From Tridacna crocea (taxonomy: Eukaryota; Mollusca; Bivalvia; Cardiida; Cardiidae): DNA of 64,000 nt. The notes under the pieces were generated by a model, which did not search any database, was not told the origin of the DNA, and was given only the letters and a program-made list of their open reading frames with translations. Positions 1,422 through 62,415 of this stretch are shown in pieces (positions within the stretch are counted from its first letter, which is position 1; every line of letters starts with the position of its first letter). The stretch spans positions 40,364,619 through 40,428,618 of the forward strand of contig OX031071.1 of the NCBI GenBank assembly GCA_943736015.1, in the 5' to 3' direction. The position numbers and the translations under genes are program-made.

Positions 1422-1944
1422 TCAATATTTCAACAATTTCAACTTTCACTAGTCTTCACACATCATACTTGTGCCAGGTAGACAGGTTGACCCATCACAT
1501 ATTATAAATTACCATTTATGAACGATTCTCCTTTTCCCATCATAATTTCTACCCGATTCATTAATAATTTTTCTCATTTTTAAAACAGCGTTTACGTAAT
1601 CGCTGTTTTAATATTATTTATAATATCAATCCTACAAAGAAATAAAACAGGTTTACAACTAAAACTCTGTGGTAGAATTCTTAGGAAATTACAAAAAAAA
1701 ATCTCCTATTCCAAAAATGCTTACTACCGGTATTTTATTATTGGATTATTTCATGATTTCTTTTTATTAAATCAAACAGTTCCACATATGTTTACAACTA
1801 AGAGGTACAGGTATTTCTAATTAAAGCAATATCTTTTTTTCCCCCAATTGCTCAATTTCCTACATTTTTTTTCCTGCTAAAGTGCAAAACATTCAAAATT
1901 TATTCTTACTCTGAATTTCTGATTAACAACCTCTTTTATTTTTG

Positions 1945-2140
1945 GGTTTAAATTAAAAATTCCAATTTGGTCTAGGTAGATTCTGGATCTACCTAGCCAA
2001 ACTGGAATCCTAATTTGGTCTAGGCAGATCTGGAATCCGTCTAGACCAAAGTAGAATTCTAATTTGGTCTGGACCAAAATAGAATTCCAATTTGGTCTAG
2101 GCAGATTCCGGATCTGCTTAGATTCCAGTTTGGACTACGA
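1945..2140. repeat. TTGGTCTAGGCAGAT palindromic interspersed repeat
   Basis: Tandem, partly palindromic units of the form TTGGTCTAGGCAGATCTGG and ATCTACCTAGCCAAACTGG. Relatives lie at 15815-15870, 20495-20560, 25500-25680, 32570-32600 and 33214-33260. No coding content. Confidence 0.65.
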
Positions 2141-4372: not shown

Positions 4373-4774
4373 TTAACCCTTTACCAAACGACAAAGTTTT
4401 GGAGTATTCTAAATTGAAAGCATTTGCAGACGACAAATTAAATGTGAATCAAAAATTGAAATTCGATTTGGGAAGGGTAGAAAACATTGTTGGAAAAGGA
4501 GAAAATGCTGGTTACCAGCATTTTCTCCTTTTCCCACAATGTTTTCAAAAGCTTTTCTTCTCAGGGTCGTTAAAAGTCCCTACTTTCGAACAATCCTTTC
4601 GAAAACATAGCAGGAAAAGAAGAAAATGCTGGTAACCAGCATTTTCTCCTTTTCCCACTATCTTTTCTACTCTTCTTAAGTCCAGTTTCAATTTTTTAGT
4701 TGCATTTATTTTGTTGTCTGCCAATGCTTTCAATATGGACAAGTCTAGAAAATTGTCGTTTGGTAAAGAGTTAA
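4373..4774. mobile_element. Composite of two palindromic TTAA MITEs head to head
   Basis: The left end starts TTAACCCTTTACCAAACGAC. The right end is the inverted form, ending GTCGTTTGGTAAAGAGTTAA. Each half carries a family hairpin: 4480-4546, with near-perfect arms around GCTGGTTACCAGC, and about 4601-4667. The two halves are inverted copies of each other across 400 bp. Either two elements inserted head to head or the pair moved as a foldback unit. Both ends carry TTAA. Confidence 0.85.
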
Positions 4775-9540: not shown

Positions 9541-12500
9541 TGGCTAACAGCAACAACAACGGCCTCCTTTGCTCTCGATTTTTCATTAGAAAATGAAAGT
9601 ATTGAAGAATTGTTGAAAAATAGCGAGTTTGATGGAATCCCAAATGTTGGTCAGCCTTTGCAGAATGTTTCTGTGCCTGTTTCACCAGGAAAATCGAGGT
9701 TTGGGTCAGTCGGTACTGAAGATATTAACAACTTTGTTCAGGAGCAACAGTAGAAAAACAATAAACAGAAAACAGCAACTGACATTAGACTGTTCACCCA
9801 ATTCTTACAATCACAAAGTGAATATAAAGCTGTTGAGTCCATTCCCCCAGTCCAAAGGATACTTGCACACTGTAAACAAGGGTCCGTCCAAATGAGAGTG
9901 ACAATGTTATTGAACAGCTATTTTTGTGTGGTCAGCTTGGACATGACACGCCAGAAAAAGTCACCAACTTATTGCATTTGTCATTCACCTTATACTTTGG
10001 AATGCGTGGTGGCCAGAAACAGCGGAACCTGAAATGGGGAGACATAGAATTACTAGGAGATGAGAACGGAGATTAATATTTAAGTCATATTAAAGAAAGA
10101 CAAAGAAAAACACGTTGTGGTTCGGACCCAAGGAATGTTCGAAAATTTAAACCGAAAGACTGGGCCTTTGATGATAAAAGAAGTTGCCCAATTGAGGCAT
10201 ACAAAGCGTTTCGTCAACACATGCTCCATTTTCAGCATCAACCATGCGGGAAATGCGAGAAAGAATGATGAATGGTTTAAACACATGCCAATGGGAAAGA
10301 ACCACATTTATAAATTAGCAAAAATTATGGTTTCTAAATGTAATTTAAATGAAGGTCGGAAGCTGACTACTCACAGCATTCGAAAGCATTTGCTACAAAA
10401 GTGCAATGATGCAGGGTTACCTGCAAATCGCTCAATGCAGCTTAGTGGTCATGAAAATGTACAAAGTGTAAACAGTTATTCAAAATTCAAAGAAAAGCAT
10501 CAAAAGCAGATCTGTAAGATGTTAAGCAGATAAAATCAAAAGAGATATTTTAATCCAAACTATTAGTAACGGTGGTATTGGTGTTCCTAATATATATTTT
10601 CTTGTTAATTCATTAAAGGCAAGTTGGATAAAACGATACCTTGACGATAAAAACACAGGAGTTTGGAAAAGCTTTTACAGAAAAGTATTACTCCCTCATG
10701 GAGGTAAATTGATTTTCGAATGTAATTTAAATGAACTTGACGTACAAAAGACTTTTCCTAAAAATAAATTCCTTCAAGAAATAATTATTTCATGGAACAA
10801 AATACGAAAACATCAACCAAACTGTAATATAAAAAAGGAAATCATGTGGAATAATTCCGATATAAAATGCAATGGTAAAATAATTTATTATAAAGAATGG
10901 CACGAAAAGGGAATGAAATCATTAGAACACTTCTTCGAATCAAGCACAAATAAATACTTTAACTTCGCAACTTTCCGTAACAAATACAATATAAAAAGCG
11001 ATTTCTTAAAATATTATAACATTATTGGAAATATTCCATTAGTGATGAAAGAAGCAGTTCAACATGAAAGTACAACTAATGGTGATAATATTCATTTAAA
11101 TAAATTAAAGGAAACTAATCAAATAACAAAAACTCTTTATAAACTTCAAATACGAAAGCAGTCAACGTTAACCAAAGCAGAAAAGAAATAGCAACACCTT
11201 ATTAACGAAGAACTGAATTGGAAAAGCATATATATGGAATCTTTTGAAGTGACATCCGACACATATTTACGAAGTTTCCAGTACAAGTTTATTACGCGAA
11301 TTATTCCAACAAATGTTTTCCTTTATAAATGTAAAATTAAACCTTCAAATATTTGTGATTTTTGTTCCAGTTACCTTGAAACGTTGGAACACTTATTTGG
11401 GGAATGTCAAGTCGTACAAATTTTATGGAATGAACTAAAGAAGCTTTTTCAAGCGAACAAAATTAATGTCAAGTTACATTTGAAAGAAATTTGTCTAGGA
11501 AGCTTTCAACATGGTGTAGATGACTATGTTATAAATTTTGTTTTACTTTTGATGAAATGTTTTATTTTTGACTCAAAAAATAAAAGCAGATTACCAAAAT
11601 TTCAAAATTTTAAACTGTTTTTAAATAATAGGATAATTTTGGAAAAGAAAACAGCCTTATCAAGGGATCAGTTGAAATTATATGAGAAAAAATGGGGAAA
11701 ATTCGTCGTATGACATCCATCTTTAACACCTTTTACATATCACAGTATGACTGAATCATGGCTCGTAAAAAATACCTCCTTTTGTTTGTTTTTTTTTTTC
11801 GCTTTTGCTCCTTTTTCTACCTATGATGCACTCTGTCATTCTATCTTGGCTTTTGCCTTTTTTACATATAAATTAATGCATGGCATAATATGTTACATTA
11901 TCTCTTACAGGGAGACACAGGTATTTTGGTGTAAGTTTGAAATCCATATTTGACTGGTTTTGATCTATTTTAATGTATATAGTCCACATGGCAAATGATA
12001 GAGTCTCAAGCTTTCTGATTCAAAGGTGAAAACCTTTTTACGCTTAAATAGAAATATAAAGTAAATCTTATCAGCCAGTGTATTTTTTTTTACCGTTTTC
12101 ATATTGAAATCAAAATATAAAAAATCACATTTAACTACAACTTGTCTTTAGACCTCGTTTTTGATGTTGATACTTCCGTTTAGATTATAATTCCGCTAAA
12201 TACATAGAAAACAAGTTTTTTTACTCCAAAACACCATGTGCATCTTCCATCATAAATACTGTATCGTGTATGATGTTGTCGTCATATTGTGTTATGGATA
12301 TTGTTTTGTATGTATGAAAGAAATAAAGCTTTAAAAAAAAGAAAAAAAAAAAAGATGTTAAGCTGTAAAACTGCTTCCGCTGGTTCAGCTCTGTCTAACT
12401 ACCCCAAGCAACCAACTTCCACAGTGCCTAGTTATACTACTGAAAACTCAGATAGTAGTTATCCCCTACAAATAAACTGCTCACAGTCTGTTCCATATCA

Positions 12501-13499: not shown

Positions 13500-14009
13500 A
13501 TGGAAGTCTGTAGGTGACATATTGAAATTTATAAAATCTAAGTATTTGTTTGGTGAGGACTGAAAACATTGTTGGAAAAAAAGGAAAACTATGGTTGCCA
13601 AAAGTTTAGTACACCTACTTTATCAAAGGTTGCATAATTTAGTAAAGGGTTTGCTGACGGAACATGTATCCAATTTTAGATTTTTGAGCTAGCAACGGGA
13701 ACATGACACCACAACAAACAGTAATAGACTGAATGTTTATTGTCGATTGTTAGTTCGGGTTTTGGCATTCGCGCGGTGATATCTTGTAGCATTCAGATCG
13801 TCAGAGTAGAGCATTTCTAGAAAGTGACAAGAAATCACAAATTTGAGATAAAAAAAAAAACAGAGATCTGTAAGTACACGTTATCTTCTATGGAACTCTT
13901 AATTAGTCTACGGTCTATCTAAATTAATTCATTTTGTTTACTCCTGTCTCTCTTAGGGTTTTAATTTGATGTAAGAATGTTTGTTTGGTTTAGCACAGTC
14001 ATAATGTTT
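13500..14009. other. No gene recognised
   Basis: AT-rich sequence. A fragment near 13562-13590 (GAAAACATTGTTGG) resembles the inner part of the palindromic MITE family. Nothing else supported. Confidence 0.35.
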
Positions 14010-15890
14010 ATTAAGAACAGATTTTATACATATTTCATCGTGAGGTTATTCATGAACTTGGGCTAGAAACGCTTTATTTCAAAGAAAACAAAAGTGAAGA
14101 ATTCGTCAGCGGAAAATAATGTTACGAACTTGTTCCAATGCTATCTTAAACTTTTCATTTATGCAGAATCTGAAAATGTGTCACCCGAAAAAGAGTTTAC
14201 ACTACACTATCTATTTATATGTTTTCATTTTTTGTCTCATTTATTATTCAAGATTATGATGTTTGCACCTGTTTCGAAGAGAGAGAGAGAGAGAGAGAGA
14301 ATACATTGTTCATAATTGAAAGAGAAGAAATTGTTCTTTTCGAGAAAAATGTTTTCTACATTGTCAGAACATGCCCCTTCATCTATCTTAATCCATACGG
14401 TTTTCTCTGGCTATGAAGAAAAACGCAGAGGAAGAGAAAGACATTATATTAGTTGATTATGTTGACGTTTAGCGCAGTTTTAACGCCATAGGTCATATCA
14501 CGGAGGTCAGTGCACATGCGCATATGTTTCCTGGCTTTCTTACACCAGTACTGACACAACGTTCTTTCCAAGTCTTTGAATATTTTCTTACATGCATATC
14601 CAATAATATCCAAGAAACGAGCGTGTGTGTGTGTGTGTGTTTTTCTTTTTTACATTGGATGTAATGCTCTCACACATTGGAAAATTTCAAGCTTATCGAC
14701 TTTGTGCTAAGCAGCCAAACGATTAATATTGTGATAGTTTCGTTCTTACTTAAGATTAAGACAGATATAAATTTACCGGTGGCTAATTCTTATCCAAAAG
14801 AAATTTTTAGATCGACTAAACTGACAACATTTGCAGACGGAAAATTAAATGTAGCTCAATGATGATCTAATGGTTTAAAAATCATTGTGGAACGTTAAGA
14901 AAAATATTGATTACCGTCATTTTCTCTCTTTTTTTTTCAACAATGTTTCCCTTCTTTTTAAGGGGCATTTAAACTTTGGATAGTGTGGTTTAGAGTTAAG
15001 TACACAAAAACATTTTACGTATTTTTGTTCCCTTTTCCAACATTTTTCATGCTGAAACACATACTATTTATTTCTCAGTATATGTTTCTTTAATGCTCAT
15101 CAGTACGTGCTTATGGTTAATATCATTGTCCATCTTCAACTTATTTCTTACTTTAGCATCCAGATTAGCCTATTAGCTTAACTGAATAACAAAGATCTAG
15201 ATCGGACTGGCGATGTGGATGCACCTTTAAGTTATTCAAAACCTTGATACCATAAGATGTGTTTGTTGTTTAATAATCGTTGTCAGAACTGCTTTCTTAT
15301 TCAGTTTATTAATTGCATCGTGTTGATCGAAATTTAAAACCACAGTGCTAGGCAAATGGTTTATTGACATAGTAAGTATTTCAGAGCGTACTTATTTCAA
15401 TGTTTTAATGTTAATGTGCCTTGCAATATTATTTCAGTGAGGATAGAATTAAAAAAACGTTTTTGGTATTAGTCCCAATTAGACTAATCCACTGTAACGA
15501 TAAAAAAATGAATTAACAAAAAAATCTAATTTTTCTTCTTACTTGTCCTCAACACCTATTTTTAATAGCTAAATGATAAACTAATGGTTTGTCTCGATCA
15601 TTAGTTCGTAACAATTTCAGAATGGTATTGCGCTAACCATGATGTCTTTAAATGCTTTCAATTTAGTCCAGTCTAAAATTCTGTTGTTTAGAAAAGAGTT
15701 AACGATTAAAAGGGCTTTACACTCCAACACAGACAAACCAAGCTTTATCGAAATGTACGTCATTTAGCTACAACAGAGAGTTGCACATCATAATGTGTAT
15801 CAGGTTAGGTATGAACTAGTCCAAACTGGATTCTAGGCTGATCCGGAATCTGCCGAGACCGATGATTTTTTTTTGTCCGAACCTCATTAT
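14010..15890 (+). repeat. Long direct duplication, copy 1
   Basis: It matches copy 2 at 22066-23740 plus 25355-25590 in the same orientation. Shared landmarks include GTGAGGTTATTCAT, the (GA)n tract at 14280-14300, a SINE-like core at 14496-14590 (CCTGGCTTTCTTACACCAGT), a MITE at 14810-15000, the phrase CAAAGATCTAGATC and AACCAAGCTTTATCGAAATG near 15738. Copy 1 lacks about 1.6 kb that copy 2 has. No coding region is supported; the frames near 14094-14416 are low-complexity. Microsatellites: (GA)n 14280-14300 and (GT)n 14623-14640. Confidence 0.8.
14810..15000. mobile_element. Palindromic TTAA MITE inside duplication copy 1
   Basis: The family left phrase CATTTGCAGACGGAAAATTAA and the eroded hairpin ATCATTGTGGAACG / CAACAATG are visible. 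The orthologous copy at 22905-23095 shows that the insertion predates the duplication. Confidence 0.6.
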
Positions 15891-16421: not shown

Positions 16422-17740
16422 CGAGGGTCAGTCAAAAATAAGTGAGCACTGCCTCATAACTTTTTTTTATTTTTTTACGTAGGCTAACAAAACTTGGCAC
16501 GACTGTTTATTAATGTCTCGTGCAAAACTTGCGCGGGAAAAAACAACGTTACGTGACGTCACGTAAATATGACGTCATTACAAAACTGTCATGGCGGACG
16601 GTGCGTTCACGCTGACGCGCGACGAACAAGTAACATATATTAAAATTGAGGCTAGGTGGGGTAAAAGCGCGATAGAAATTCAGAAAGCACTCGAGGAAGT
16701 AGGTTCAGAGTTTGTACTTCGATATAGTTCTATCACCCGATGGGTAAGACAATTCAACAACGGGCGCAATACCGTTAGCAACAAGCACCTGTGCGGAAGG
16801 CCTTCGTCGGCAACGACCGGTGAAAATGTGGAAAATGTTGCAAAACTGCTGAACGATGACAGAAGATATTCATGTGATGAAATTGCTCTTGAGTTGGACA
16901 TAAGTCACGGGTCAGTTCATCGAATTTTAACGGAACGTCTGCAAATGAGAAAGATCGCAGCCCGATGGGTGCCCCACATGCTGTCGGAAAGTGAAAAACA
17001 CCAACGTGTTAACATTGCCCGTAAACTTCTAAAAAGATATGGTGAAGATGGCGATGAAATGTTACAACGAATCGTTGCAATCGATGCGACATTGATTCGG
17101 TCTTTTGAACCCGAATTAAAGCGCCAAAGCAGTGAATGGCATACAAAAATCTCCGAAAGACCCGTAGAATTCGGTCGAAGTCAGAACTGTGCCAAAATGT
17201 TGATGATCTTTGCGTATGATTTTCGTGGAGTATTGACGGCACACAGGGTACCAACTGGTGAGACTGTGAATAAAGAGTACTATAAGATGTATATTAGAAC
17301 AATACTTCGTCCAGCAATACGCCGAAAGCGCCAGGAGATGATTGACCGCACGCCGCTAATTTTTACACGATAACGCGTCACCCCATAAAGCCAACGTTGT
17401 CAAGGAGCTGCTGGAGTCATACCAGTGGGAAGTTCTTGATCATCCCCCCTACTCCCCTGACTTGAGCCCCCCTGACTTTGATTTGTTCCCAAAACTTAAG
17501 GAGCGCTTACGGGGAATACGCTACGAGAGTTTGGATGAACTTGAGTGTGCCGTGAACAGGGAGGTACGACGAATCAACTTTGGTAGCCTAGCAACCGGCA
17601 TCCAAGCGTTGCCAAAGAGATGGAATTCTGTCATCCAGTCCAGGGGAGATTACTTTGAGGTATTATAAGCACGTAATTTGTTTACTATGTAGTTTTAAAA
17701 AGTTATTAGGCAGTACTCATTTATTTTTGACTGACCCTTG
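16422..17740 (+). mobile_element. mariner transposon, full length, 1.32 kb
   Basis: TIRs of about 33 bp: the left reads CGAGGGTCAGTCAAAAATAA and the right is its inverse with about three mismatches, ending TTTTTGACTGACCCTTG. It is flanked by a TA duplication (16420-16421 and 17741-17742). Size, TA target and encoded DD34D transposase place it in the mariner family. Intact ends with a single frame lesion suggest a relatively recent copy. Confidence 0.95.
16591..17668 (+). pseudogene. mariner transposase (DD34D), one frameshift
   Basis: The transposase binds the TIRs through N-terminal helix-turn-helix domains and cuts DNA with a DDD triad. The frame starts MADGAFTLTRDEQVTYIKIE at 16591. It shows the linker WVPHMLSESEKHQR and the first catalytic Asp in VAIDATLI, where the usual DE pair is DA. 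The frame breaks near 17360 by a one-base shift, stopping at 17371-17373. The other frame carries the HDNA Asp (17369-17371) and, 34 residues on, the third Asp in SPPDFDLF (17474-17476). It ends RGDYFEVL with stop at 17668. The frameshift lies just before the second catalytic Asp, so this copy cannot make active enzyme. Confidence 0.93.
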
Positions 17741-22065: not shown

Positions 22066-23977
22066 TTATTAGGAACAGGTTTTATACATATTTGACCGTG
22101 AGGTTATTCATAAACTTGGGCTAGGAACGCTTCATTTCAATAAGAAAACAAAACTGAGGAAGTCCTCAGCGGAAAAAAATGCTACGAACTTGTTCCAATG
22201 CTAACTTAAACTTTTCATTTATGCAAAATCTGAAACTTGTCACCCGAAAGAGAGTTTACAGTATACTCTGTGTTTTCATTTCTTTTCATTATTTATTATT
22301 ATCTTAAGGTTATAATGTGTGCATCTGTTTTGAGGAGAGGGGGAGAGAAGATGAGGGAGAGAGAGAGAGAGAGAATAAATCTTTCATAATTGAAAGAGAC
22401 GAAAGTGTTCTTTTCGAGAAAAATGTTTTCTACGTTGTCAGAACATGCCCTTTCATCTACCTTAACCTAGCCTTAATCCATACGGTTTTTCTGGCTATGA
22501 AGAAAACGGAGAGGAAGAGAAAGACTTTAGATTGGTGGATTATATTGACGTTTAACGCAGTTTTAGTTATATCACATCACGGAGGTCAGTGCACATATGC
22601 ATGTCTTTCCTGGCTTTCTCACACCAGTACTGACACAACGTTCTTTCCAAGTCTTTGAATATTTTCCTACATGCATATCCAATTCTTATATGCATATTTT
22701 CTTACATGCATATCCAATAATATCCAAGAATCGAGCATTTTTTTTTTTTTAGATTGGATGTGTTGCTCTCAAACATTGAAAAAAAATCAAACTTATCTAC
22801 TTTGTGCTAAGCAGCCAAACGATTAATCCTCAAACTGTTTTGTTCTAACTTAAGACTTAGACAGAAATAAATTTACCGGTGGCTAATTCTTATCCAAAAT
22901 ACAATTTTTCAGATCGACCAAACTGACAACATTTGCAGACGACAAATTACATGTAGCTTTATGATGATTTGATGGTTTAGAAAACATTGTGGAACGTTAA
23001 GAAAATAATGATTACTGTCGTTTTCCTTTATTTTTTCAACGATGATTCTTTTTAAGGGACATTTAAACTTTGGATAGTGTGGTTGAGAGTTAAGTACACA
23101 AAAACATTTTACGTATTTTTGTTCCCTTTTCGAACAGTGTTCATGCTGAAACACATACTATTTATTTCTCATTACATATGTCTTCAAAGTTCATCAGTAT
23201 GAGCTTATAGTTCATATCATTGTCCATCTTCAACTTATTACTCACTTTAGCATCCAGATTAGCCTATAGTGAAAAACAAAGATCTAGATCAAACTGGCTG
23301 TGTGGATGTGCATTTAAGGTATTCAAAACCTTGATATCATAAGATATATTTGTTGTTTCAAAATCGTTGTCATGATAAAATTGTCTTATTTAGTTTATAT
23401 TCATTGTACATGTATATAAAACCACAGTGCTAGGCAAATGGTTTATTGACAAAGTAAGTACTCCAGAGCGTACTTCCTTCAATATTGCTATGTCAGTGTG
23501 ACTTGCAACAGTATTACAGTGAGGATAAAATTAAAAAAAAGTTCTTGTTATGAGTCCCAATTAGACTCATCCATTAGTCTGAAAGTAACGATAAGATAAT
23601 GACTAAAGAAAAACAATCTAATTTATTATCCTATCTGTCATCAATACCTATTTTTAGCACGGAAAATAATAAACTGACAGTTTGTCTCGATTATTAATTA
23701 GTTCGGTACAATTTTAGAATTGTTTTGCGCTTAGCATGAATTTTTACTTCGCCCAGCGCAGTGGGAATTTTTACTTTGCGCAGGACGATCCTGAAATGGT
23801 ACCGATTCGTGCTCTGCGCAGAAAATAGTTATAAAAATCACACGTTAACCCCAATTATCGTTCAAAACTAAAAAAAAAAGGGGGGCGGGAATAAAGAAAT
23901 TATAGATCTAGACATAAAATTAGACCTTTTCATGACATGGTGGTCTATACAAGCCGTATTATTATACTGCAATGAAA

Positions 23978-24970: not shown

Positions 24971-25130
24971 AATGCCTAGCCAGATAGTTTAGTGGTTGGC
25001 GTACCTAACTCTTGACTTGATGGTCGAAGGTTCGACTCCCAGACGATGGAACATACCTTTCGGTGATTTTTCGCCTCTCACCTCTGAAGAATGGAAGAAA
25101 AACATTAATTCACATGGCGACAAAGTTGTG
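24971..25130 (+). mobile_element. tRNA-derived SINE, 5' part
   Basis: An A-box-like TAGTTTAGTGGTTGG lies at about 24988 and a B-box GGTTCGACTCC at 25030-25040, spaced as in a tRNA. The body phrase ATTTTTCGCCTCTCACCTCTG matches the minus-strand SINE at 33331-33512. The distal core seen there is missing or diverged here. The tRNA part does not form a convincing functional tRNA. Confidence 0.7.
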
Positions 25131-25179
25131 TCGGTAGTATCGTGATAAAGTCTAGCACTGACCACCTTGATATGCCCTT

Positions 25180-25405
25180 AACCTTCACCACAAAATCCCG
25201 ACTTTTAACATCCCCGTGAAAGAAGCCTTTTAAAAGCATTGTAGAAAAAAGGAGAAAATGCTGGTAACCAGCATTTTCTCCTTTTCCAACGATGTTTTCT
25301 TCCCTTCCTAAAACAAAATTGAAATCTTTAGTCGCACTTATTTTGTCGTCTGCAGATGCTTTCAATTTGGACCAGTCTACACTTTTCTTGTTTAGTAAAG
25401 AGTTA
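25180..25405. mobile_element. Palindromic TTAA MITE
   Basis: The palindrome GGAGAAAATGCTGG / CCAGCATTTTCTCC lies at 25251-25281, with family flanks TTGTCGTCTGCAGATGC and a right end TTTAGTAAAGAGTTAA. The left end begins near ATGCCCTTAACC. Only its right half is represented in duplication copy 1 (15655-15705). Confidence 0.75.
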
Positions 25406-25683
25406 ACGATTAAAACGGCTTTTCACTCCAACACAAACAAACCAAGCTTTATCGAAATGTACGTCGTTTAGCTACAACAGAGAGTTGCACAATGGCTATC
25501 ATGTTATATATATTAGTCCGAACTGGATTCTAGGCTGATCCGGAATCTGCGGAGACCACAATCGATTTTTGTTTTATCCGGACCCAATTAGAATTTTACT
25601 TAGGTCTAGACACATTCCAGATGTGCCTAGACCAAATAAGGATCCAAGTTTGGCTAGGCAGATCCGGAATATGCCAAGACAAA

Positions 25684-25889
25684 TCTTACGAACGAAGTCC
25701 GTAACAAAGAAACAAATGAATAAATGCATGGCAGAAATAAGGACCGGAGCGGGATTCGAACTCCGAACTCCCGGATGCAAAGCCAATACCCTAACCACTG
25801 AGCTAAAGAGATATCTCCCTGACGCAGTAGCCAGGTATTGTATTTAAATCGGGAGTAAGCCATGCAGGAAGGAGTGGTCTCCCGTAACA
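25684..25889 (-). repeat. TRIM 3' LTR with tRNA-like promoter
   Basis: Near-identical to the LTR at 26006-26211. Minus-strand order: TGTTACGGG end, about 75 bp of leader with ATTTAAAT, the A box (TAGCTCAGTGGTTAGGG), a B-box-like AGTTCGAATCC, then a tail with TTTGTTTCTTTGTTACGGAC and the terminus GTAAGA. The first B-box G is A in this copy. Confidence 0.9.
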
Positions 25890-26005
25890 CACCCCCTCTT
25901 AAAGTCATCATTTATTGATGACTCAAAGCCTTATTAGGCAGGAAGTCCGATTTTGGACAACAAATGGGATTAATGGCTCAATGGCCAATCCCGGACGAGC
26001 CCCCA

Positions 26006-26211
26006 TCTTACGAACGAAGTCCGTAACAAAGAAACAAATGAATAAATGCATGGCAGAAATAAGGATCGGAGCGGGATTCGAACTCCGAACTCCCGGATGC
26101 AAAGCCAATACCCTAACCACTGAGCCAAAGAGATATCTCCCTGACGCAGTAGCCAGGTATTGTATTTAAATCGGGAGTAAGCCATGCAGGAAGGAGTGGT
26201 CTCCCGTAACA
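26006..26211 (-). repeat. TRIM 5' LTR with tRNA-like promoter
   Basis: The upstream LTR in the minus-strand sense of the TRIM. A box TGGCTCAGTGG and B-box-like AGTTCGAATCC are tRNA-spaced. It differs from the other LTR at only a few positions, such as GATCC against GGTCC, which implies a young insertion. Confidence 0.9.
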
Positions 26212-26215
26212 CAAA

Positions 26216-28049: not shown

Positions 28050-31000
28050 ATGAATGTAACAATCTGTACTTTTAATGTAAAAGGGTTACAGAGTAGGCAA
28101 AAACGCGAGCACATCTTTAAATGGTTAGAACAAAGTGAATATGCAGTTTGTCTTCTTCAAGAAACACACTCAACACCTCAACATAACATAGACTGGGCTA
28201 CTGAGTGGGATGGGAAGAGCTTCTTTAGTGGGCTTAAATCAAATAGTGAAGGTGTCGCTTTTCTCATTGACAAGAATTCAAACATTCAAGTAAGCAACTT
28301 CAATGAGATCTACATTGGAAGAGTGATAAGTATAAACATTAAAATATATGAGCAGGAGTTTCTTTTAATTAATATATATGGACCAAACAAGGACAATGAT
28401 AAACATATCTTTTCAAAACTACAAGATTACATTTCAAACAATACGGATAAAAGTATAATAATTGGTGGAGATTTTAATACAATCTTGAACACAGAAGTTG
28501 ATAAAAAGAACAGTAAAAATGACACAAATGAAAATAATCGAAAGCAGATTCTAAGATTAATGAATGAACACAATCTAAAGGACGTTTGGAGATTTCTTAA
28601 TCATGCCACTAAACAATACACATGGCATTCGAATACTAAACCGACTATTTTCTGCAGATTGGACTATTTCTTAACCTCAGAGTTTATAGATAATGTCATT
28701 ACAGCTTGTAAAATAAAACCTGGATACAAATCAGACCACTCTATTGTCATATTAAATATTAATTGTAATACCTCAAAGAGAGGTCCAGGATACTTTAAAT
28801 TCAACAACAGTCTATTACTAGAAGAAGAATATATACAAAGCATTAAAAGAAGCATAGATGAAATAATTACGGTTAACAAATGTAACCCTAAAACATTATA
28901 GGAAATCATAAAAAGTTCAATTCGAAACGAAACTATTAAATATGCAACACAAAGAAAAAAGAATAAAATAGAAAGAGAAGTGCAACTAGTACGTGAAATT
29001 GATAGACTAGAATTAAAAATTAGCACAACAACCAATGTAAATGAAAATGATATCGTCAATTTGAACACACTAAAACAAGAACTCGAAATTTTTTATACTG
29101 AAAAGATTAATGGCTATATTTTAAGAGCAAAAATCCAGCATATTGAAAATAATGAAAAGAACTCAAAGTATTTTGCAAATTTAGAAAAACGACATTTTGA
29201 ACAAAAAACTATTCATACACTCAAAATAGATAATAAAGAAATCAACGGTAAAGATGAAATTTTGAAAGAGCAACAATCGTTTTACCAAGACTTGTATAGA
29301 AAATGAAAGAACACGGACAGTGAAATAGACTTTTTTGATACTGAGTTGCCAATACTTAATACTGTTGATAAAAATAGCTGTGAGGGTGTTTTAACGGAGT
29401 ATGAATGTAAACAAGCATTATTTGATATGAAAAATGAAAAAAGTCCAGGATCAGATGGACTTACTGTTGAATTTTATAAAACATTTTGGGATACATTAAA
29501 AACCTGTTTTGTTGATTCAATAAATTATTCAATTGAAACTGGTAGTTTAAGCACGCTACAAAAACAAGGTATTATTACTCTTCTCCCAAAAGATGGAAAG
29601 AATCTAGAAAACTTGTCAAATTGGCGACCTATCACCCTACTTAATACGGATTATAAAATCGCGACAAAAGCCATATCAAATAGGATGAAAAAAGTTCTTC
29701 CGACCATAATAAATCCATCCCAAACTGGCTTATGAAAAATAGATATATCGGTGAGAATATAAGAATAATTCAAGAATGTATTGATTATCTAAATGATGAA
29801 AACAAACCTGGATTTATTTTTTTCGCTGATTTTGAGAAGGCCTTTGACAGTGTTAGCCATGATTTTATTTATCAATGTTTAAGAAAGCTTAATTTTGGTG
29901 ACACCGTGATAAAATGGGTAAAATTATTTTACACAGATATTAACAGCATAGTAATTAATAATAAACATCTCTCTAGTAGCATAGCTGTAGAACGCGGCGT
30001 CCGGCAAGGATGTCCGTTGTCTACATCAATTTTCCTCTGTTGCATAGAAATACTGGCGCAGTATATAGAAACTGATGATACTAATAAAGGTATCAGAATA
30101 GATGATGAAGAAATTAAACAATCACTGTTCGCAGATGATGCGACATATCTATTAGACGGTTCAGAAAATTGTTTTAATTCCCTCATATATATTTTAACAG
30201 AATTTGGTAAATTGTCAGGCCTAAGGCTTAACCATTCTAAATCAGTTATACTTAGAGTAGGGAGCATGAAACGACGTAAAATCCAATTCTGTAAAAATAT
30301 TCCCTTTATATGGACATCTGATTATGCAAAGACCCTTGGTATTGTACTTTCCAATGATCGTAATATAAGCTTGGAGCAAAACATTACTCCAAAGTTGCAA
30401 GAATTTAAAAATGTACTTAAATAATGGCATCATAGAAAGTTAACATTGCTTGGAAAAGTTACAGTTATTAAGACTTTTGCTTTACCAAAATTAATTTACC
30501 CCCTTACAGTTTTATCCAACCCACCGGAATATATTTTAAGGGAAACAAACTCATGTATTTTTGACTTCATATGGAATAAAAAGCCAGATAAAATCAAAAG
30601 AGATATCTTAATCCAAACTATTAGTAACGGTGGTATTAGTGTTCCTAATATATATTTTCTTGTTAATTCATTAAAGGCAAGTTGGATAAAACGATACCTT
30701 GACGATAAAAACACAGGAGTTTGGAAAAGCTTTTACAGAAAAGTATTACGCCCTCATGGTGGTAAATTGATTTTCGAATGTAATTTAAATGAACTTGACG
30801 TGCAAAAGACTTTTCCTAAAAACAAATTCCTTCAAGAAATACTTATTTCATGGAACAAAATACGAAAACATCAACCAAACAGTAATATAAAAAGGGAAAT
30901 CGTGTGGAATAATTCCGATATAAAATGCAATGGTAAAATAATTTATTATAAAGAATGGCACGAAAAGGGAATAAAATCATTAGAACACTTCTTCGAATCA

Positions 31001-31774
31001 AGCACAAATAAATACTTTAACTTCGAAACTTTCCGTAACAAATACAATATAAAAAAGAGCGATTTCTTAAAATATTATAACATTATTGGAAATATTCCAT
31101 TAGTGATGAAAGAAGCAGTTCAACATGAAAGTACAACTAATGGTGATAGTATTCTACTAAATAAATTAATGGAAACTAATCAAATAACAAAAACTCTTTA
31201 TAAACTTCAAATACGACAGCAGTCAACGTTAACCAAAGCAGAAAAGAAATGGCAACACCTTATTAACGAAGAACTGAATTGGAAAAGCATATATATGAAA
31301 TCTTTTGAAGTGACATCCGACACATATTTACGAAGTTTCCAGTACAAGTTTATTACGCGAATTATTCCAACAAATGTTTTCCTTTATAAATGTAAAATTA
31401 AACCTTCAAATATTTGTGATTTTTGTTCCAGTTACCTTGAAACGTTGGATCACTTATTTTGGGAATGTCAAGTCGTACAAATTTTATGGAATGAACTAAA
31501 GAAGCTTTTTCAAGCGAACAAAATTAATGTCAAGTTGCATTTGAAAGAAATTTGTTTAGGAAGTTTTCAACACGGTGTAGATGACTATGTTATAAATTTT
31601 GTTTTACTTTTGATGAAATGTTTTATTTTTGACTCAAAAAATAAAAACAGATTACCAAAATTTCAAAATTTTAAACTGTTTTTAAATAATAGGATAATTT
31701 TGGAAAAGGAAACAGCCTTATCAAAGGATCAGTTGATATTATATGAGAAAAAATGGGGAAAATTCGTCGTATGA
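28050..31774 (+). pseudogene. LINE-B ORF2: APE endonuclease plus L1-type reverse transcriptase, with few lesions
   Basis: ORF2 of an L1/Tx1-like non-LTR element. The endonuclease (28050 onward) starts MNVTICTFNVKGLQSRQKR and shows LLQETH, INIYGPN, GGDFNT and SDHS. The linker runs 28902-29306. RT follows with SPGSDGLTVEFYK, NWRPITLLN, ADFEKAFDSV, RGVRQGCPLS and catalytic FADD at 30128-30139. The C-terminal part has LTLLGKVTVIKT and a CDFC...HLFWEC knuckle. Four lesions break it: TAG at 28899-28901, TGA at 29304-29306, a one-base shift near 29730 and TAA at 30422-30424. Everything else is open, so inactivation is recent. The last 1.2 kb is nearly identical to 10528-11713. Confidence 0.93.
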
Positions 31775-32404
31775 TATCCATCTTTAACACCTTTTACATA
31801 TCACAGTATGACTGAATCATGGCTCGTAAAAATACCTCCTTTTGTTTTGTTTTTTTTTTTTTTTTCGCTTTTGTTCTTTTTTCTACCTATGATGCACTCT
31901 GTCATTCTATCTTGGCTTTTGTCTTTTTTACATATAGAATAATGCATGGCATAATATATTAGATTATCTCTTACAGGGAGACACACGTGTTTTGGTGTAA
32001 GTTTGAACTCCATATTTGACTGGTTTTGATCTATTTTAATGTATATAGTCCACATGGCAAATGATAGAGTCTCAAGTTTTCTGATTCAAAGGTGAAAACT
32101 TTTTACGCTTAAATAGAAATGTAAAGTAAATCTTATCAGCCAGTGTATTTTTTCTACCGTTTTCATATCGAAATCAGAATATAAAAAATCACATTTAACT
32201 ACAACTTGTCTTTAGACCTCGTTTTTGATGTTGATACTTCCGTTTATTTAGATTATAATTCCGCTAAATACATAGAAAACAAGTTTTTTTACTCCAAAAC
32301 ACCATGTTCATCTTCCATCATAAATACTGTATCATGTATGATGTTGTCGTCGTATTGTGTTATGGATATTGTTTTATATGTATGAAAGAAAGAAAGCTTA
32401 TAAA
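31775..32404 (+). mobile_element. LINE-B 3' UTR and A-rich tail
   Basis: It matches 11714-12345 base for base apart from scattered changes and small indels, for instance in the poly-T run at 31850-31865. It ends GAAAGAAAGCTTATAAAAA next to repeat R. The copy at 12304-12351 ends in a longer A tract. Confidence 0.88.
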
Positions 32405-32600
32405 AAGTTTGAATATTAAGAATCGAATAATATACAGTAGTTTGCTTTATTGTGTTTAAATGAATATCCACTGAAATCTGTATCTACCTAGCCAACTGAA
32501 ATTCGTATTTAACCCAGGCAGATTTAGACGAAACGAAAATAATTTTATTTTGGTGCAGACCAAATTAAGATTCTAATTTGGTCTAGGCAGGTTCTAGATC
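32405..32600 (+). repeat. Interspersed repeat R, copy B, left part
   Basis: It matches 17958-18053 plus 20415-20510 without the foldback insert, and so preserves that element's empty site at about 32498-32503 (GAAATT then CGTATTTAACC). It is cut at 32600 by LINE-A. The terminal GGTTCTAGATC (32590-32600) is one TSD copy. Confidence 0.88.
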
Positions 32601-34589: not shown

Positions 34590-34936
34590 AAGATGGAAGA
34601 CGCTTTGCAGTAAGGAAAGAGTGATCTTCCCCAACACAAAATGTCATTATTTAAATGACAGAAAGCCTTATTCGGCAGTATTTCTATTATTTAGAGAACA
34701 AATGGCTCAATGGCAAATCTAGAACAAGCCCCTATCTTACGAACATGGAATTTTACAACAAATGTATAGCTACAATACAAACCGCACCTGATGGGATTTG
34801 AACCCGTGCGGCACAGATCCTCGAGTTTTAATAAAAGAAAAACACTTTAACCACTGAGCCAAAGAGAATAATTCCTTACTCAGTCGTAAGGTTTTGACAA
34901 GGCTATGCAGTAAGGAAGGAATTATCTGCCTTAACA
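34590..34936 (-). mobile_element. Decayed TRIM of the tRNA-LTR family
   Basis: A complete LTR (34735-34936) and the end of a second (about 34590-34636) flank about 98 bp. The internal part aligns with the TRIM at 25890-26005: the GAAAGCCTTATTCGGCAG and CAAATGGCTCAATGG phrases are shared. The primer-binding site is present but mutated (complement of TCTAGAACAAGCCCCTA, 34718-34734). The LTR keeps a tRNA-like A box (TGGCTCAGTGGTTAAAG) and B box GGTTCAAATCC on the minus strand. It is older than the 25684 copy. Confidence 0.8.
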
Positions 34937-48789: not shown

Positions 48790-50412
48790 AGCATGGCTCG
48801 TAAAAATACATTTTTTTATCTTGAAGGAGAAATGTTCTCGACTACTGTAACACAATTTGAAGAGCAAGCAGAACACAGTGAAGTAGAAGTGGAGAAGACA
48901 AATAAGGGGTTAAAGAGAAAAGTGGCATGGCAGTTAAAGTCTGATGAAAATTTAAAGAGAAAGAAGTATAAATTGCGACATCATGAATACAAATTCCAAA
49001 GCCAAGAAAAGGTTGTCAAGAATCAATCGCCACAAACTGAAAAAAATAAAGAAGGCATAAAAATCATACACAAAACGATTCCGAGCAGACCACAAGATAA
49101 TCAAAGTGTAATTGGTGATAGATGTTTCACAATTCCATGGAGAAGTCGAGAAATTGTTGGTAGGGAGGAACATCTACGAATCATGAAAAATTACCTGCTC
49201 CGTTCAGATCAAACAGAAAAGCAGATCGCGCTGTGCGGTCCTGGGGGCATTGGAAAAACTACTATTGCCTATGCATATGCTTATATGGAACAAGTTGAAC
49301 ATTATCGAGGTGGAATTTTTTGGCTATCAGGACCAAACGTCAAGGCTTTTGAGAATTCCGTGCGTCGTTTAGCTGCTGTTATTGGTACTATCGGAAGTGA
49401 ACCGATAGAAACGCAAGCAAAAACATTTAACTGGATTTCCCGTCGTCAGGATAGATGTTTGATTGTCCTAGACAATTTAGATCAGGAGGAAGTTCATCCC
49501 ACCATTCTGTCATGCATAACAGATCATGGAAAAACAGGACAGAATAATCACGTAATAATAACCACTAGGAGGAGTGCAGACAAGGCAAAGATAGATTTCA
49601 GTGGCATCAAATGCCTAACAGTTTCTGTATTATCTGACACCGATAGTACCCAACTTTTCAAGAAAGTATTAGGAAATGAAAATGACAAAAATGACTCTGA
49701 CATTCAGACACTTTGCAATAAACTGTACGGCCTGCCCCTAGCCATTGAACAAGCAGCAACGACAGTACAGTTAAAATATTATAAGGTTTCTGATTATATT
49801 GCAGAATTCCAAGAAAAAAGCACTCAGCAGTTAGACAATCCTGTATCTCCACAAACATCAAATAGTGAAGACCTAGTCAGGCAATCGGTTTGGACCACTT
49901 GGGGTATTAGTCTAGAAAACATCAAAAACATGGCTCGTTCACTTTGTCTCGACCATGCTGTTAGAAATGTGTTGCCTTTGTTGGCATATCTTGCAAAACA
50001 AGAAATAACTATTGAATTGATAAATGAAGGAAAGCCTGAAATTGAAGATGAAAACCTCAGAAAAATATTTGGTTCCGAGTTCAAGAAGCGTGAGGTCATC
50101 AGAATTTTAAAAGAAAATTCTGTTTTGAGAGACAGCAGTAACAACATGCTGGAAATACACCCGCTTGTTCAAGAATTTATTCGATCTACTCTAGAGCCAG
50201 ATGAACAGGAGAGGAGGCGTATAGCCGAGTTTTCTGTTGCCATGCTGAGCAAAGCCTGTGAAGAAGCAGCAGAGAGTACTGTATCGTGTGCAAGACTTGA
50301 AAATCATTGTGTTTCATTACTGCTTCATTTTGAAGGTATTGGTGACATCACTTCGAAATTATCGAATTTGCAGAAGCGCCTTATTGGGAAGTATTGGGAT
50401 TTGAAAAGAAAG
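48790..50412 (+). CDS. NB-ARC (STAND ATPase) exon
   Basis: A single large exon encodes a nucleotide-binding switch of the NB-ARC/STAND class, used in cytosolic sensing and scaffold proteins. From ATG at 48793 it reads 540 codons. Residues 1-100 are charged with basic patches. VGREEHL at 122-128 precedes the P-loop GPGGIGKTT (149-157). LIVLDNLD (223-230) is Walker B, IITTRR (255-260) the sensor, YGLPLA (312-317) the GxP motif and EIHPLVQEF (454-462) the MHD-like motif. A helical segment follows and may lead into repeats. The acceptor TTTCCACAG ends at 48789 and the donor AG/GTGAGT is at 50413. Phase is 0 at both ends. The ATG context GCATGGC could be the true start, with only UTR upstream. No TIR, Death or CARD domain is seen in the window. 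Confidence 0.88.
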
Positions 50413-51979
50413 GTGAGTTAAACAACATTTCCTATCTTATTTCACTTTATAATTTTTATTTTCTTCTTTTACGATACGAAGAAAAAAAAACATCATAACA
50501 AAAATGAGATGATACAAATGATCGTAAATAGAGAACAAAAGCTGAAAGCGGAGAACGCAATAGGTCGTATCAGTATTACAAACAGCAATGATCCGCAACA
50601 TTAAAACGTGTATTTAAAACTGATTCAAATACCGCTAATGGGAGCTGAAAGTAGAGAACGAAAGCCGAAAGCGGAAAACTCCAGGTTCGTTTATTTGCTC
50701 CACTGGATGAGACTTTTAAAATTGATTTACATAGTGTTAGCTTTTTCCGTGCATTGTTTTTGGAATCAGGGGGTAAGGTCGTTGTCTTTCTTACGGTATA
50801 CGAATGCAGCACAGATATATACTGTTTTCGGACAAATATTTCCCTGGGTTTCTCCAAACACTACTGATAGCTTTGTAAACTTTAATTTGTATAATATCAT
50901 GCTTAACAACTAAATCATCTATGATGGCGGTTTAATTACCTGTAAATATTAAAGGGTTGAGTGCAGATTTCTTGTGTTTTCATCGAGATATAAAATGCAA
51001 TTGCCTTATTACATTGCAAATAACGCTATAATTGCACTCGCTGTTCACTTAAATCACTTTTCGAAAATGATAGAGAGAAGAAATCATGGACAAATACGAC
51101 AGTAAATACCGGTAAAATTCCTTCGCGGACACTTGGTAGAACGGGCATGGGTACACAATCTATTTTTAGCCTTCAGCATTTTCTTTTTTTCGGTCGAAGG
51201 CGGCCATTTTGCTGGCTTTGAAATCATATACTTCGATACTTTCGATGATTCATCGAACAAAATTTTAAAAAAAATATTCTGTATATGAACAACACAATCA
51301 ACTATCTGAACTTGAGGCTAAGCTGACGATGTGTTGATTCGAGTGACCGTTTTACAGATAATTTTGTAAAGAATATGTGTACGTACCGTCGGCAGATCTG
51401 TCATCGATGAGTATCTATCTGTTTCCGATATAAGACTTGTTCTATCCTGTGTTTCTTGTAAGATATGAATCGAATGACGCCAACGTGTTGTGATCGAATT
51501 ATTAGAATATAAAAAAATGGTATCACAGCTGTTCATTTTTTCAATATTTTTGGTTTCCCAGTTCTAGGCTTATTTCTAATATTGTCCCTATCACGCCAAC
51601 ATTTCAAAAATTCTTAACACAGTGTATTCACTTCCTTCGGTCCTTTCTCCAACAGTTCTTTCACTATATACATTCCATCAAATCCACGATGACATGGTGT
51701 ATTTTTTTTTTTTTTTTTTATTTTAATATAGACCATAAATAGTTTGTATGAAATCTAAAATTAGATCCTACACAACAATTTGGAAAGTAGTCCCATTGCG
51801 TTCATCGAAAAATAGTATGCAGGTTTTTACATCATATGACCCGATTCTGGCCAATCAAAAAAAAAAAAAAACGGTTTTGCACCATGAGTGCAATTATAGG
51901 TGGGTAATTAGGTTTTTTACATCTCACCAAATCGGAAAAATATATATGTCACTGAAATTTACATGAAAAAAAAAACTAC

Positions 51980-59375: not shown

Positions 59376-60537
59376 TTATTACAGCTTAAGCAATAATAAG
59401 CTAAATATAGTATTGGTCATTGCGCATTTTTCACTTTTCCTTCTTTCATTTTTCTTTCTTGTGGGGTCATTGTGGTTTGCATTGAGAATCAAAGCACTGT
59501 TACTTCTAATGGAAGGTGGTAGTAAAAACTTACTCAAACTTTATTAATATGACACTTTAAAATTTTCCCCATGGTATTATTGTATGACTGTTTTCCATAA
59601 AAACTTGAATTTAAGGGTTTTGTACGTGGCTTTAGATTGTAGGAAAGTTGATTGGGTGAAATGATAATGGTTTTAGTGTTTCTACCTGTAGTGTTGCGCA
59701 TTGTTGGGTGTTTCTCCTTTCCTTATGTATCTTCCATGTGGACATTTCGAAATAGATTATGATTAAGCTTAAACAATGCGTATTTCTAGAGCTATTTCTG
59801 TAACATTTAGCTCAGAAGTTCATTGTCTGTATGATTAGCTTGCACAGGTTTTTCAATCTACATTTCACACGTGAAATGACATGGAGGTGTCTGAGAACTT
59901 TTTTTTCTTGAAACAGACGAGTGATTCGTCTTCACCGAACTAAAATCTGACACTGCCGATGAAAAGGTGAGACCGGAAAGGTAATCTCCATCTAAGGAGA
60001 ACTTAAGCATTTGGAATAAAACAATGTCTACCATTGCCAGTCGTGTTTCAAAAGTAGAATTGTATCCAAATGTTTTAAAATCATTTCTAGATACGTTTTC
60101 AATTCATAAATGTCCAGAGAATTCTTTCAGAAAAGCCTTTGTACCACCTTTCAAACAACAAGTAGGCCCCTATTAATGTCAACGAATTTGATATAGACTG
60201 GAAGTGTGCATCCTCAGCATACTTCATATTTCCCATGGTATTAACATACATTCATTGATATAGACGTGTCACTACTGACTGTATGTTGTTAAAAATTACA
60301 ACAGTATGTTGTGTAGTATTACGGAATTGCAAGGCATTAAGAAGACAAGGAATACTCAAAGAGCATCAGAACATGTAGAATAATATTAGACAGCAAAAAT
60401 ATGTATGCCTTTGCCTTGTAAATATTCAGATCATTATATTTTATCATCATTTTTAGATCTACTACAGGCTCAGAGTTATTTTCTTTTCTTATTATATCAT
60501 TTATAACTTCTCAACAAGTAGATAAGGAAATGTCGAA
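59376..60537. other. No gene recognised
   Basis: AT-rich intronic or intergenic sequence before the solo LTR. No exon or repeat structure that I can support. Confidence 0.35.
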
Positions 60538-60744
60538 TGTTACGGGAGACCACTCCTTCCCGCATGGCATTCTCCCGATTTAAATACTATACCTGGCTAC
60601 TGCGTCAGGGAGATATCTCTTTGGCTCAGTGGTTAGGGTATTGGCCTTGCGTCCGGGAGTTCCGGGGTTCGAATCCCGCCCGGACCCTTATTTCTGCCAT
60701 GCATTTATTCATTTGTTTCTTTGTTACGGACTTTGTTCGTAAGA
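60538..60744 (+). mobile_element. Solo LTR of the tRNA-LTR TRIM family
   Basis: A 207-bp plus-strand copy of the TRIM LTR, TGTTACGGGAGACC to GTAAGA, flanked by a 4-bp TSD CGAA (60534-60537 and 60745-60748). It holds a consensus A box TGGCTCAGTGG (60622-60632) and a perfect B box GGTTCGAATCC (60666-60676), 33 bases apart as in a tRNA. The frame covering it is an artefact. It sits 75 bp upstream of the protease exon, on the same strand. Confidence 0.92.
60622..60676 (+). promoter_or_regulatory. tRNA-like RNA polymerase III promoter in the solo LTR
   Basis: A and B boxes both match the type 2 Pol III consensus. There is no TTTT terminator within the LTR. The first T-run (TTTTTTTTTT) is at about 60777-60786, so a Pol III transcript could run out of the LTR toward the exon. 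Activity is inference. Confidence 0.6.
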
Positions 60745-60819
60745 CGAATTGCTCATCTTTTTACTGCGATTGTATATTTTTTTTTTGCCCTATGTATAAT
60801 TACTAATTTTTTATAACAG

Positions 60820-61716
60820 AACCCGTGGTGGAGACCTCTTCCAATGAGAGTGTTTGGAGTTTTGTTCGAGAACTGGAAAAAGATCAAGAAGCCATTCAAG
60901 CAGTTGGAGTATGTTTCAACCCCGATAATAAACAGTTTGATGTAACTGTTGTTTCAAAACAACCGAAGAAAAACGAAAGCAGAGTGGAGAATTTTTTTTC
61001 TGAAAGGTCCTCAGAACTCCCAAGCTACATGCTGAAGGTCCGACATATGAGTGAAGAAGAAAAAGCTGTGACAGATTCTGAGGAGTACCGTGAATACTTC
61101 AGAGAACGTGATAACATGAAAAAACATATTGAATTTCAGCAAAGAATCTATGAACATTCGGTAAACTTATTCCATACCAACCGAAACGTTACAGGTGTGT
61201 TTTTTTCGCCTGTGAAGTCATCTGGATATGGAACATCAAAGCACCGTATTGAGAAAGAGCCTTGTGTTGTCGTCTATGTAAAAGTTAAGTTCGACAAGAA
61301 CCGGTTCCCTTTATGGTCTAAAAAAATCCCAGAGACCATAGATGGTATCAAGACGGACGTTAGGGAATCTTACTTAGAAACATTCATGCCACCAAAAGCT
61401 CCTGCTGTGCTTACTGGAAGTGGTTGCAGCATAGATGCGCATAAGCCGGGGACATTGGGTCCATTTGTTTGCTCTCGAAGTGGTAGAACTGGATTTCTAG
61501 TACCCCTTCATGTATTACTGTCACCAGAACAGCAAAAATATATAATTTTACCAAGTTCTCGATGTGGTATGATAGAATCTCACAAGTCGGTCTACGAAGC
61601 AGGAGGACAAGAGATATCAAGTTTGACGAACATCTACCTTTCTTCGGGGGATGCAACTCAACCTGGATATGAGGTTGGATTGGTTGTACCTGCCTCAAAC
61701 TTAGTTGCCACAGATG
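60820..61716 (+). CDS. Nal1-like trypsin-fold protease, exon 1
   Basis: Encodes the first half of a serine protease-like domain. The acceptor TTTTATAACAG ends at 60819. The exon enters in phase 1 and reads PVVETSSNESVWSFVRELEK onward for 297 codons. The N-terminal 130 residues are charged and partly helical, containing MSEEEKAVTDSEEYREYF. The protease start shows GSGCSI, GTLGPFV and GFLVPLHVLL, with the presumed catalytic His at 61509-61511. GYEVGLVV near 61670 lies where a catalytic Asp is usual (DxAL type); here it is Glu. The donor G/GTAAAT is at 61717, phase 1 out. No ATG with a good upstream context opens the exon, so an upstream exon must exist, possibly 54929-54959. Confidence 0.82.
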
Positions 61717-62415
61717 GTAAATTTTGTTTGGTTCCTTTGTAATGTTGAGGGAATTTTGTCTTTTGGACATATTGAACATTTTTTTAATCAATACCGTGAT
61801 CGCTTAAACTTTGCTGTCCAATAAAATAATCAAGTTTGATTTAATGAATGCTCATCATTATGCTGCATTCTATAGAACTTTATCAATTCCCCTAATATTG
61901 TATTTAAAATTCAGATTTTACTTGCTTGATATTTTTGGCGTAAAAATTCTCCCTTGTAAAATTATATGCGAACGGTGGTTACAAAAAAGAATCCTTGGCC
62001 TCAGCGTAAAATATGCATTTTATTAAACAATCGCTTAGAGGAGGGTACATAATCAAATCAATAGGTAAAAAAATGTTAAACATGCAAAATATTTCTTGAC
62101 ATCCTTCTGTGTGTGTGGCAGAGGCGTTCGATTTCGACCTGTAAACATTTTCCTATGTTGAAGCAAACCAAATTATTTCCAAATGAATGGCGTTTTAAGT
62201 CGCACCAAATAGTTTTCAGGAGTCTCTTTTTACTACCGAAAATAAGACAAACAGCATATTTCATCAGACTGAATGAGAATAAACTGTAACAGAATATATT
62301 TCAACCATTGCTGACGGATGCTTTAAACGTATCAAGGCAGCAAAACAGTAGCAGGTTTGAAATACAAATCACCAGCAAATATGTTAATATGCACATTTGT
62401 TCATTCTTTTTGCAG
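61717..62415 (+). other. Intron between the protease exons
   Basis: A 699-nt GT/AG phase-1 intron, AT-rich. Reading through gives an early TAA at 61740. No repeats recognised. Confidence 0.75.

Follow-up and report, generated by a model that had tools for sequence, protein, structure and literature searches.

A probable Helenus-type TRIM with A and B boxes in its LTRs in Tridacna crocea

Structure of the intact element

The window, by which we mean the whole 64-kb stretch of Tridacna crocea DNA analysed here, contains a complete element of 528 bp bounded by two LTRs. Its sense strand is the minus strand, so that it reads from 26211 to 25684, and its parts are as follows.

25684..26211, minus strand: complete element, 528 bp
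26006..26211, minus strand: 5' LTR, 206 bp, starting TGTTACGGG and ending in the bases CGTAAGA
25890..26005, minus strand: internal region, 116 nt, without a long reading frame
25987..26005, minus strand: primer-binding site (PBS) TGGGGGCTCGTCCGGGATT, 19 nt
25902..25924, minus strand: predicted hairpin of nine pairs, upstream of the purine tract
25890..25900, minus strand: polypurine tract AAGAGGGGGTG, adjoining the 3' LTR
25684..25889, minus strand: 3' LTR, 206 bp
25680..25683 and 26212..26215, no strand: 4-bp duplication (TSD) CAAA, on both sides of the element

The 206-bp LTRs of the original prediction were confirmed at these positions. They are identical at 204 of 206 sites and both differences are transitions (K2P 0.01); with so few differences between the repeats, the insertion is recent. 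The PBS follows the 5' LTR with zero spacer, and its 19 bases coincide with the start of the human tRNA-Pro 3'-end (reverse) primers, as printed in the available portions of PMC12217144 and PMC10993922. The tRNA-Pro identity proposed for this site holds against the published primers, and its length is 19 nt rather than the 18 nt first given. The purine tract closes the internal part, and both it and the 4-bp duplication, the latter borne out by the empty-site alignment described below, were found as predicted. The element was also said to lack coding sequence, which agrees with the open reading frames: no ORF of at least 150 aa, the length at which the ORF list starts, overlaps it, and the longest stop-free run inside it spans 88 codons when all six frames are read and no start codon is required.

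Related copies in the window

Three further sites in the window bear on the history of the element.

60538..60744, plus strand: solo LTR of the element's family
60534..60537 and 60745..60748, no strand: TSD CGAA, the solo copy's own duplication
34597..34936, minus strand: divergent relative, with an LTR (34735-34936), a PBS-like start (34717-34734), an internal part and a partial 3' LTR
1819..2137, minus strand: paralogous empty site, a host-repeat copy without the insertion

Over 206 sites the solo LTR shares 94.7% and 93.7% identity with the intact element's two LTRs, and it has the form that would be left by recombination between two LTRs. No empty site for it was found in the window, where its flanks, once joined, matched nothing but themselves. 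Some 80 bp downstream begins a 305-aa ORF (60825-61742, plus strand) with no Pfam match at E up to 0.001.

The divergent relative keeps the order of parts seen in the intact element, and 13 of the 18 bases of its PBS-like start are as in the element. Its LTR has diverged to 67% identity over 179 aligned sites (K2P 0.44). A blastn search with the intact element only recovers it at E=4e-13; profiles built including it give E=5e-39 for the LTR and 1e-43 for the internal part, and its second LTR piece on its own reaches E=0.022 with the LTR profile. Its 3' LTR is cut. The 4-bp TSD is seen at two copies, the intact element and the solo LTR. In the relative, seven of the nine pairs of the predicted hairpin are kept, five unchanged and two by changes on both sides, and two are lost. 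Conservation of the hairpin is a lead that comes from these two sequences.

At the empty site, the flanks of the intact element, when joined with one CAAA, align unbroken over the junction to positions 2137-1819, with 249 of 340 columns identical and 30 gap columns.

A and B boxes in the LTR

Each LTR of the intact element carries an A box and a B box, as does the solo LTR. The boxes were assigned from the A/B-box consensus, together with its description in the available part of PMC10886601.

26117..26127, minus strand: A box TGGCTCAGTGG, 5' LTR
26074..26084, minus strand: B box AGTTCGAATCC, 5' LTR, one mismatch to GGTTC
25795..25805, minus strand: A box TAGCTCAGTGG, 3' LTR
25752..25762, minus strand: B box, 3' LTR, one mismatch to GGTTC
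60622..60632, plus strand: A box, solo LTR
60666..60676, plus strand: B box GGTTCGAATCC, solo LTR

In LTR coordinates the A box occupies positions 85-95 and the B box 128-138, so that their starts are separated by 43 nt. The boxes had been predicted at tRNA spacing and are present at that spacing, the one departure being in the B box itself, which reads AGTTC and not GGTTC in both LTRs of the intact copy. GGTTC is found in the solo LTR and in the divergent relative, and the A box fits the consensus in all four LTR copies. When the B-box part of the search pattern is relaxed to [AG]GTTC in order to admit the intact copy, the paired pattern occurs five times in the window, four of them within the element's family, and in none of 30 dinucleotide shuffles of the window. 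The fifth pair (TAGTTTAGTGG ... GGTTCGACTCC, 24985-25039, plus strand) also has tRNA spacing; the LTR profile gives no match there, and it is perhaps a tRNA-derived SINE or a tRNA relic.

The boxes are better preserved than their surroundings. Against the divergent relative, 20 of 22 box positions are kept compared with 100 of 184 in the rest of the LTR when gaps are scored as differences (Fisher p=0.0005), and compared with 100 of 157 when gaps are set aside (p=0.007). The longest conserved stretch of the LTR in this comparison surrounds the A box (LTR ~79-98). Two other stretches, near LTR 15-31 and 196-206, are equally well preserved, and the B-box 11-mer taken by itself keeps 9 of 11 positions.

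A tRNA scan of the LTR, proposed with the original prediction as a check, called no tRNA. With E values as high as 10 allowed, the intact element and the solo LTR gave no match to the Rfam tRNA model, which scored 21.5 bits on the divergent copy against a cut-off of 29. ARAGORN, run with the bacterial code, found no tRNA in the window. Since no good tRNA fold is present, the evidence speaks for the tRNA-like region being a promoter remnant rather than a tRNA gene.

Which polymerase transcribes the element

Judged from these sequence features, the LTR may well contain a working Pol III promoter. The main competitor is a TRIM whose transcription depends on Pol II and a TATA-like stretch, TTTAAATA, the tRNA-like region being only what remains of a SINE or tRNA that inserted into the LTR long ago. 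The TATA-like stretch lies at LTR position 42 in both the intact element and the solo LTR, ~30 nt before the region of the presumed Pol III start, and the poor tRNA fold also suits a Pol II transcript. However, the stretch is missing in the divergent relative, in which the A and B boxes have nonetheless been kept at a K2P of 0.44. Moreover, a Pol II transcript that terminates in the 3' LTR should presumably need AATAAA or ATTAAA, and neither occurs on the LTR sense strand, the sole such motif in the element being internal. We regard transcription by Pol II as a real possibility, if on the improbable side.

The usual Pol III stop is a run of TTTT. No such run occurs on the sense strand across the 322-nt unit of LTR plus internal region, nor across the whole element, including its final 459 nt, counted from LTR position 70. 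This absence looked strong as a signal against shuffles of the 322-nt unit, of which 21 of 2000 were free of TTTT. It is weak when the comparison is with window stretches of matched GC content, of which 27 of 309 likewise have no TTTT; some stretches in this comparison may overlap the element. The divergent relative contains three TTTT runs, and the solo LTR is followed by TTTTT 14 nt downstream, in its flank.

Identity of the element

The structure, duplications, PBS and boxes support the class proposed originally, a TRIM whose LTRs contain a promoter-like region of tRNA type and whose build resembles that of Cassandra. On its sequence the element is almost certainly a non-autonomous LTR retrotransposon (TRIM) of Helenus type, and we put the probability of the best explanation as a whole, namely a Helenus-type TRIM together with the mechanism proposed below, at roughly 0.92.

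The other reading offered at the outset, under which lone tRNA-headed units or two tRNA-derived SINE copies standing in tandem by chance would mimic LTRs, would account for the fact that each repeat has a tRNA-like head containing A and B boxes. Within the window it is contradicted by the solo LTR with its CGAA duplication, by the relative of the same layout and by the paralogous empty site. The tRNA-like part starts ~80 nt inside the unit instead of at its 5' end, in two copies the 4-bp duplications directly adjoin the LTR ends, and the 19-nt PBS sits right at the LTR end with the purine tract at the other end. The divergent relative keeps the order of parts, and the empty site covers the whole unit. 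We therefore reject a chance pair of SINEs, which is very improbable.

Still less credible is membership in biv-TRIM, the other bivalve TRIM family (PMC6934838, as far as its available text describes it), a small TRIM likewise found as solo copies and with repeats of ~200 bp (202-218 bp, close to the 206 bp here); we reject it on a comparison by description, because neither strand of the element contains the inner segment TGATCCCAAAGGAC conserved in biv-TRIM or its GGGGAGA purine tract, the biv-TRIM inner domain measures 77-80 bp against 116, and a canonical PBS was not found in biv-TRIM.

The element is instead well supported by its sequence as a member of the known class Helenus, to which it was likened by description. 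Kojima (2024; PMC10886601, here and below in its available portions) described 51 Helenus families in pteriomorph bivalves, across five bivalve orders, so the expectation that this kind of bivalve element was undescribed did not hold. Helenus elements are TRIMs in which boxes A and B of the LTR are set in tRNA-like sequence and in which a PBS and a polypurine tract lie between the LTRs. They are short and non-autonomous, with two LTRs and no coding region, all of which applies here, and the 528 bp of the element fall within their length range of 311-1263 bp. In animals they make 4-bp duplications, as CAAA and CGAA are here; tRNA-Pro is among their primers in bivalves, solo LTRs occur, and gypsy is the presumed helper (PMC10886601). 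Families were clustered in that work at a threshold of 75% identity. Box A is present in 'most' of them. The GGTTC of box B is reported as conserved, whereas the intact copy here has AGTTC. Many families have no consistent tRNA isotype, and a tRNA recognised by a covariance model, which this element lacks, is not given as a defining trait of Helenus in the available description (PMC10886601). Cassandra and Ajax resemble the element in being TRIMs whose LTR holds an internal promoter of Pol III type, but differ in that their promoter is derived from 5S rRNA and that they are known from plants and two nemerteans (PMC10886601, available portions).

Search for a helper and surroundings of the element

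Exact PBS strings were used to look for a gypsy partner, and none occurred again in the window. Seven of the nine window ORFs of at least 150 aa gave no Pfam match to an LTR-type integrase or gag domain; the reverse transcriptase matches in those seven ORFs stood with LINE-type endonuclease or zf-RVT domains, or alone. Pattern scans of contig collections returned 0 matches, as expected, because the collections are viral and prokaryote.

The window is otherwise rich in repeats and ORFs. A 1.8-kb repeat pair (10527-12337 and 30585-32406, plus strand) is 96% identical; its second copy holds part of a LINE-type ORF with a zf-RVT match, and endonuclease and reverse transcriptase ORFs lie upstream of it (28050-30424). 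Another pair, of 1.7 kb (14008-15642 and 22066-23739, plus strand), is 81% identical. A ~400-bp palindrome at 4373-4774 is 79% self-complementary and accounts for several matches to microRNA models that stayed below threshold; pieces related to it lie near 1-212, 1193-1417 and 25175-25406. The ORF at 16591-17373 (plus strand) has weak HTH_32 and Transposase_1 matches, both slightly under the curated cut-offs, and we take it to resemble a mariner-type transposase. A 542-aa ORF at 48793-50421 (plus strand) has NB-ARC and NACHT matches.

Proposed replication

For the Helenus-type TRIM favoured here, replication might proceed as follows. Transcription by Pol III would begin at LTR ~65-75, which is ~10-20 nt before the A box, or alternatively Pol II would start from TTTAAATA, and the transcript would extend across the internal region and beyond the 3' LTR. 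A tRNA-Pro would prime minus-strand synthesis at the PBS. The resulting strong-stop DNA would span LTR ~70-206 and could anneal to the corresponding segment of the 3' LTR irrespective of the transcript's end point; neither a poly(A) signal nor a fixed 3' end in the LTR would then be needed. The purine tract would then prime the plus strand. Gag, reverse transcriptase and integrase would be supplied in trans by an LTR retrotransposon, presumably, judging from Helenus in animals, a gypsy element that shares the PBS.

A more specific layout is tentative and, in our estimate, unlikely to be right in full: the element would be organized for read-through Pol III transcription, with R running from LTR ~70 to the LTR end, no U5 and a transcript end anywhere in the host flank, and the hairpin would act as a packaging or plus-strand priming signal for the helper. 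Neither this layout nor such a role for the hairpin is met with in the available part of the Helenus description, in which Pol III transcription itself is inferred and the reverse transcription of such a transcript by gypsy machinery is left to experiment (PMC10886601).

Significance

With the class already published as Helenus, the element comes as a small surprise. LTRs of this kind can pass for SINEs or tRNA relics in annotation. A single 64-kb window here brings together a clean, recent Helenus-type insertion, its empty site, a solo LTR and an old relative. It offers a system for asking how gypsy machinery reverse transcribes a Pol III transcript without poly(A).
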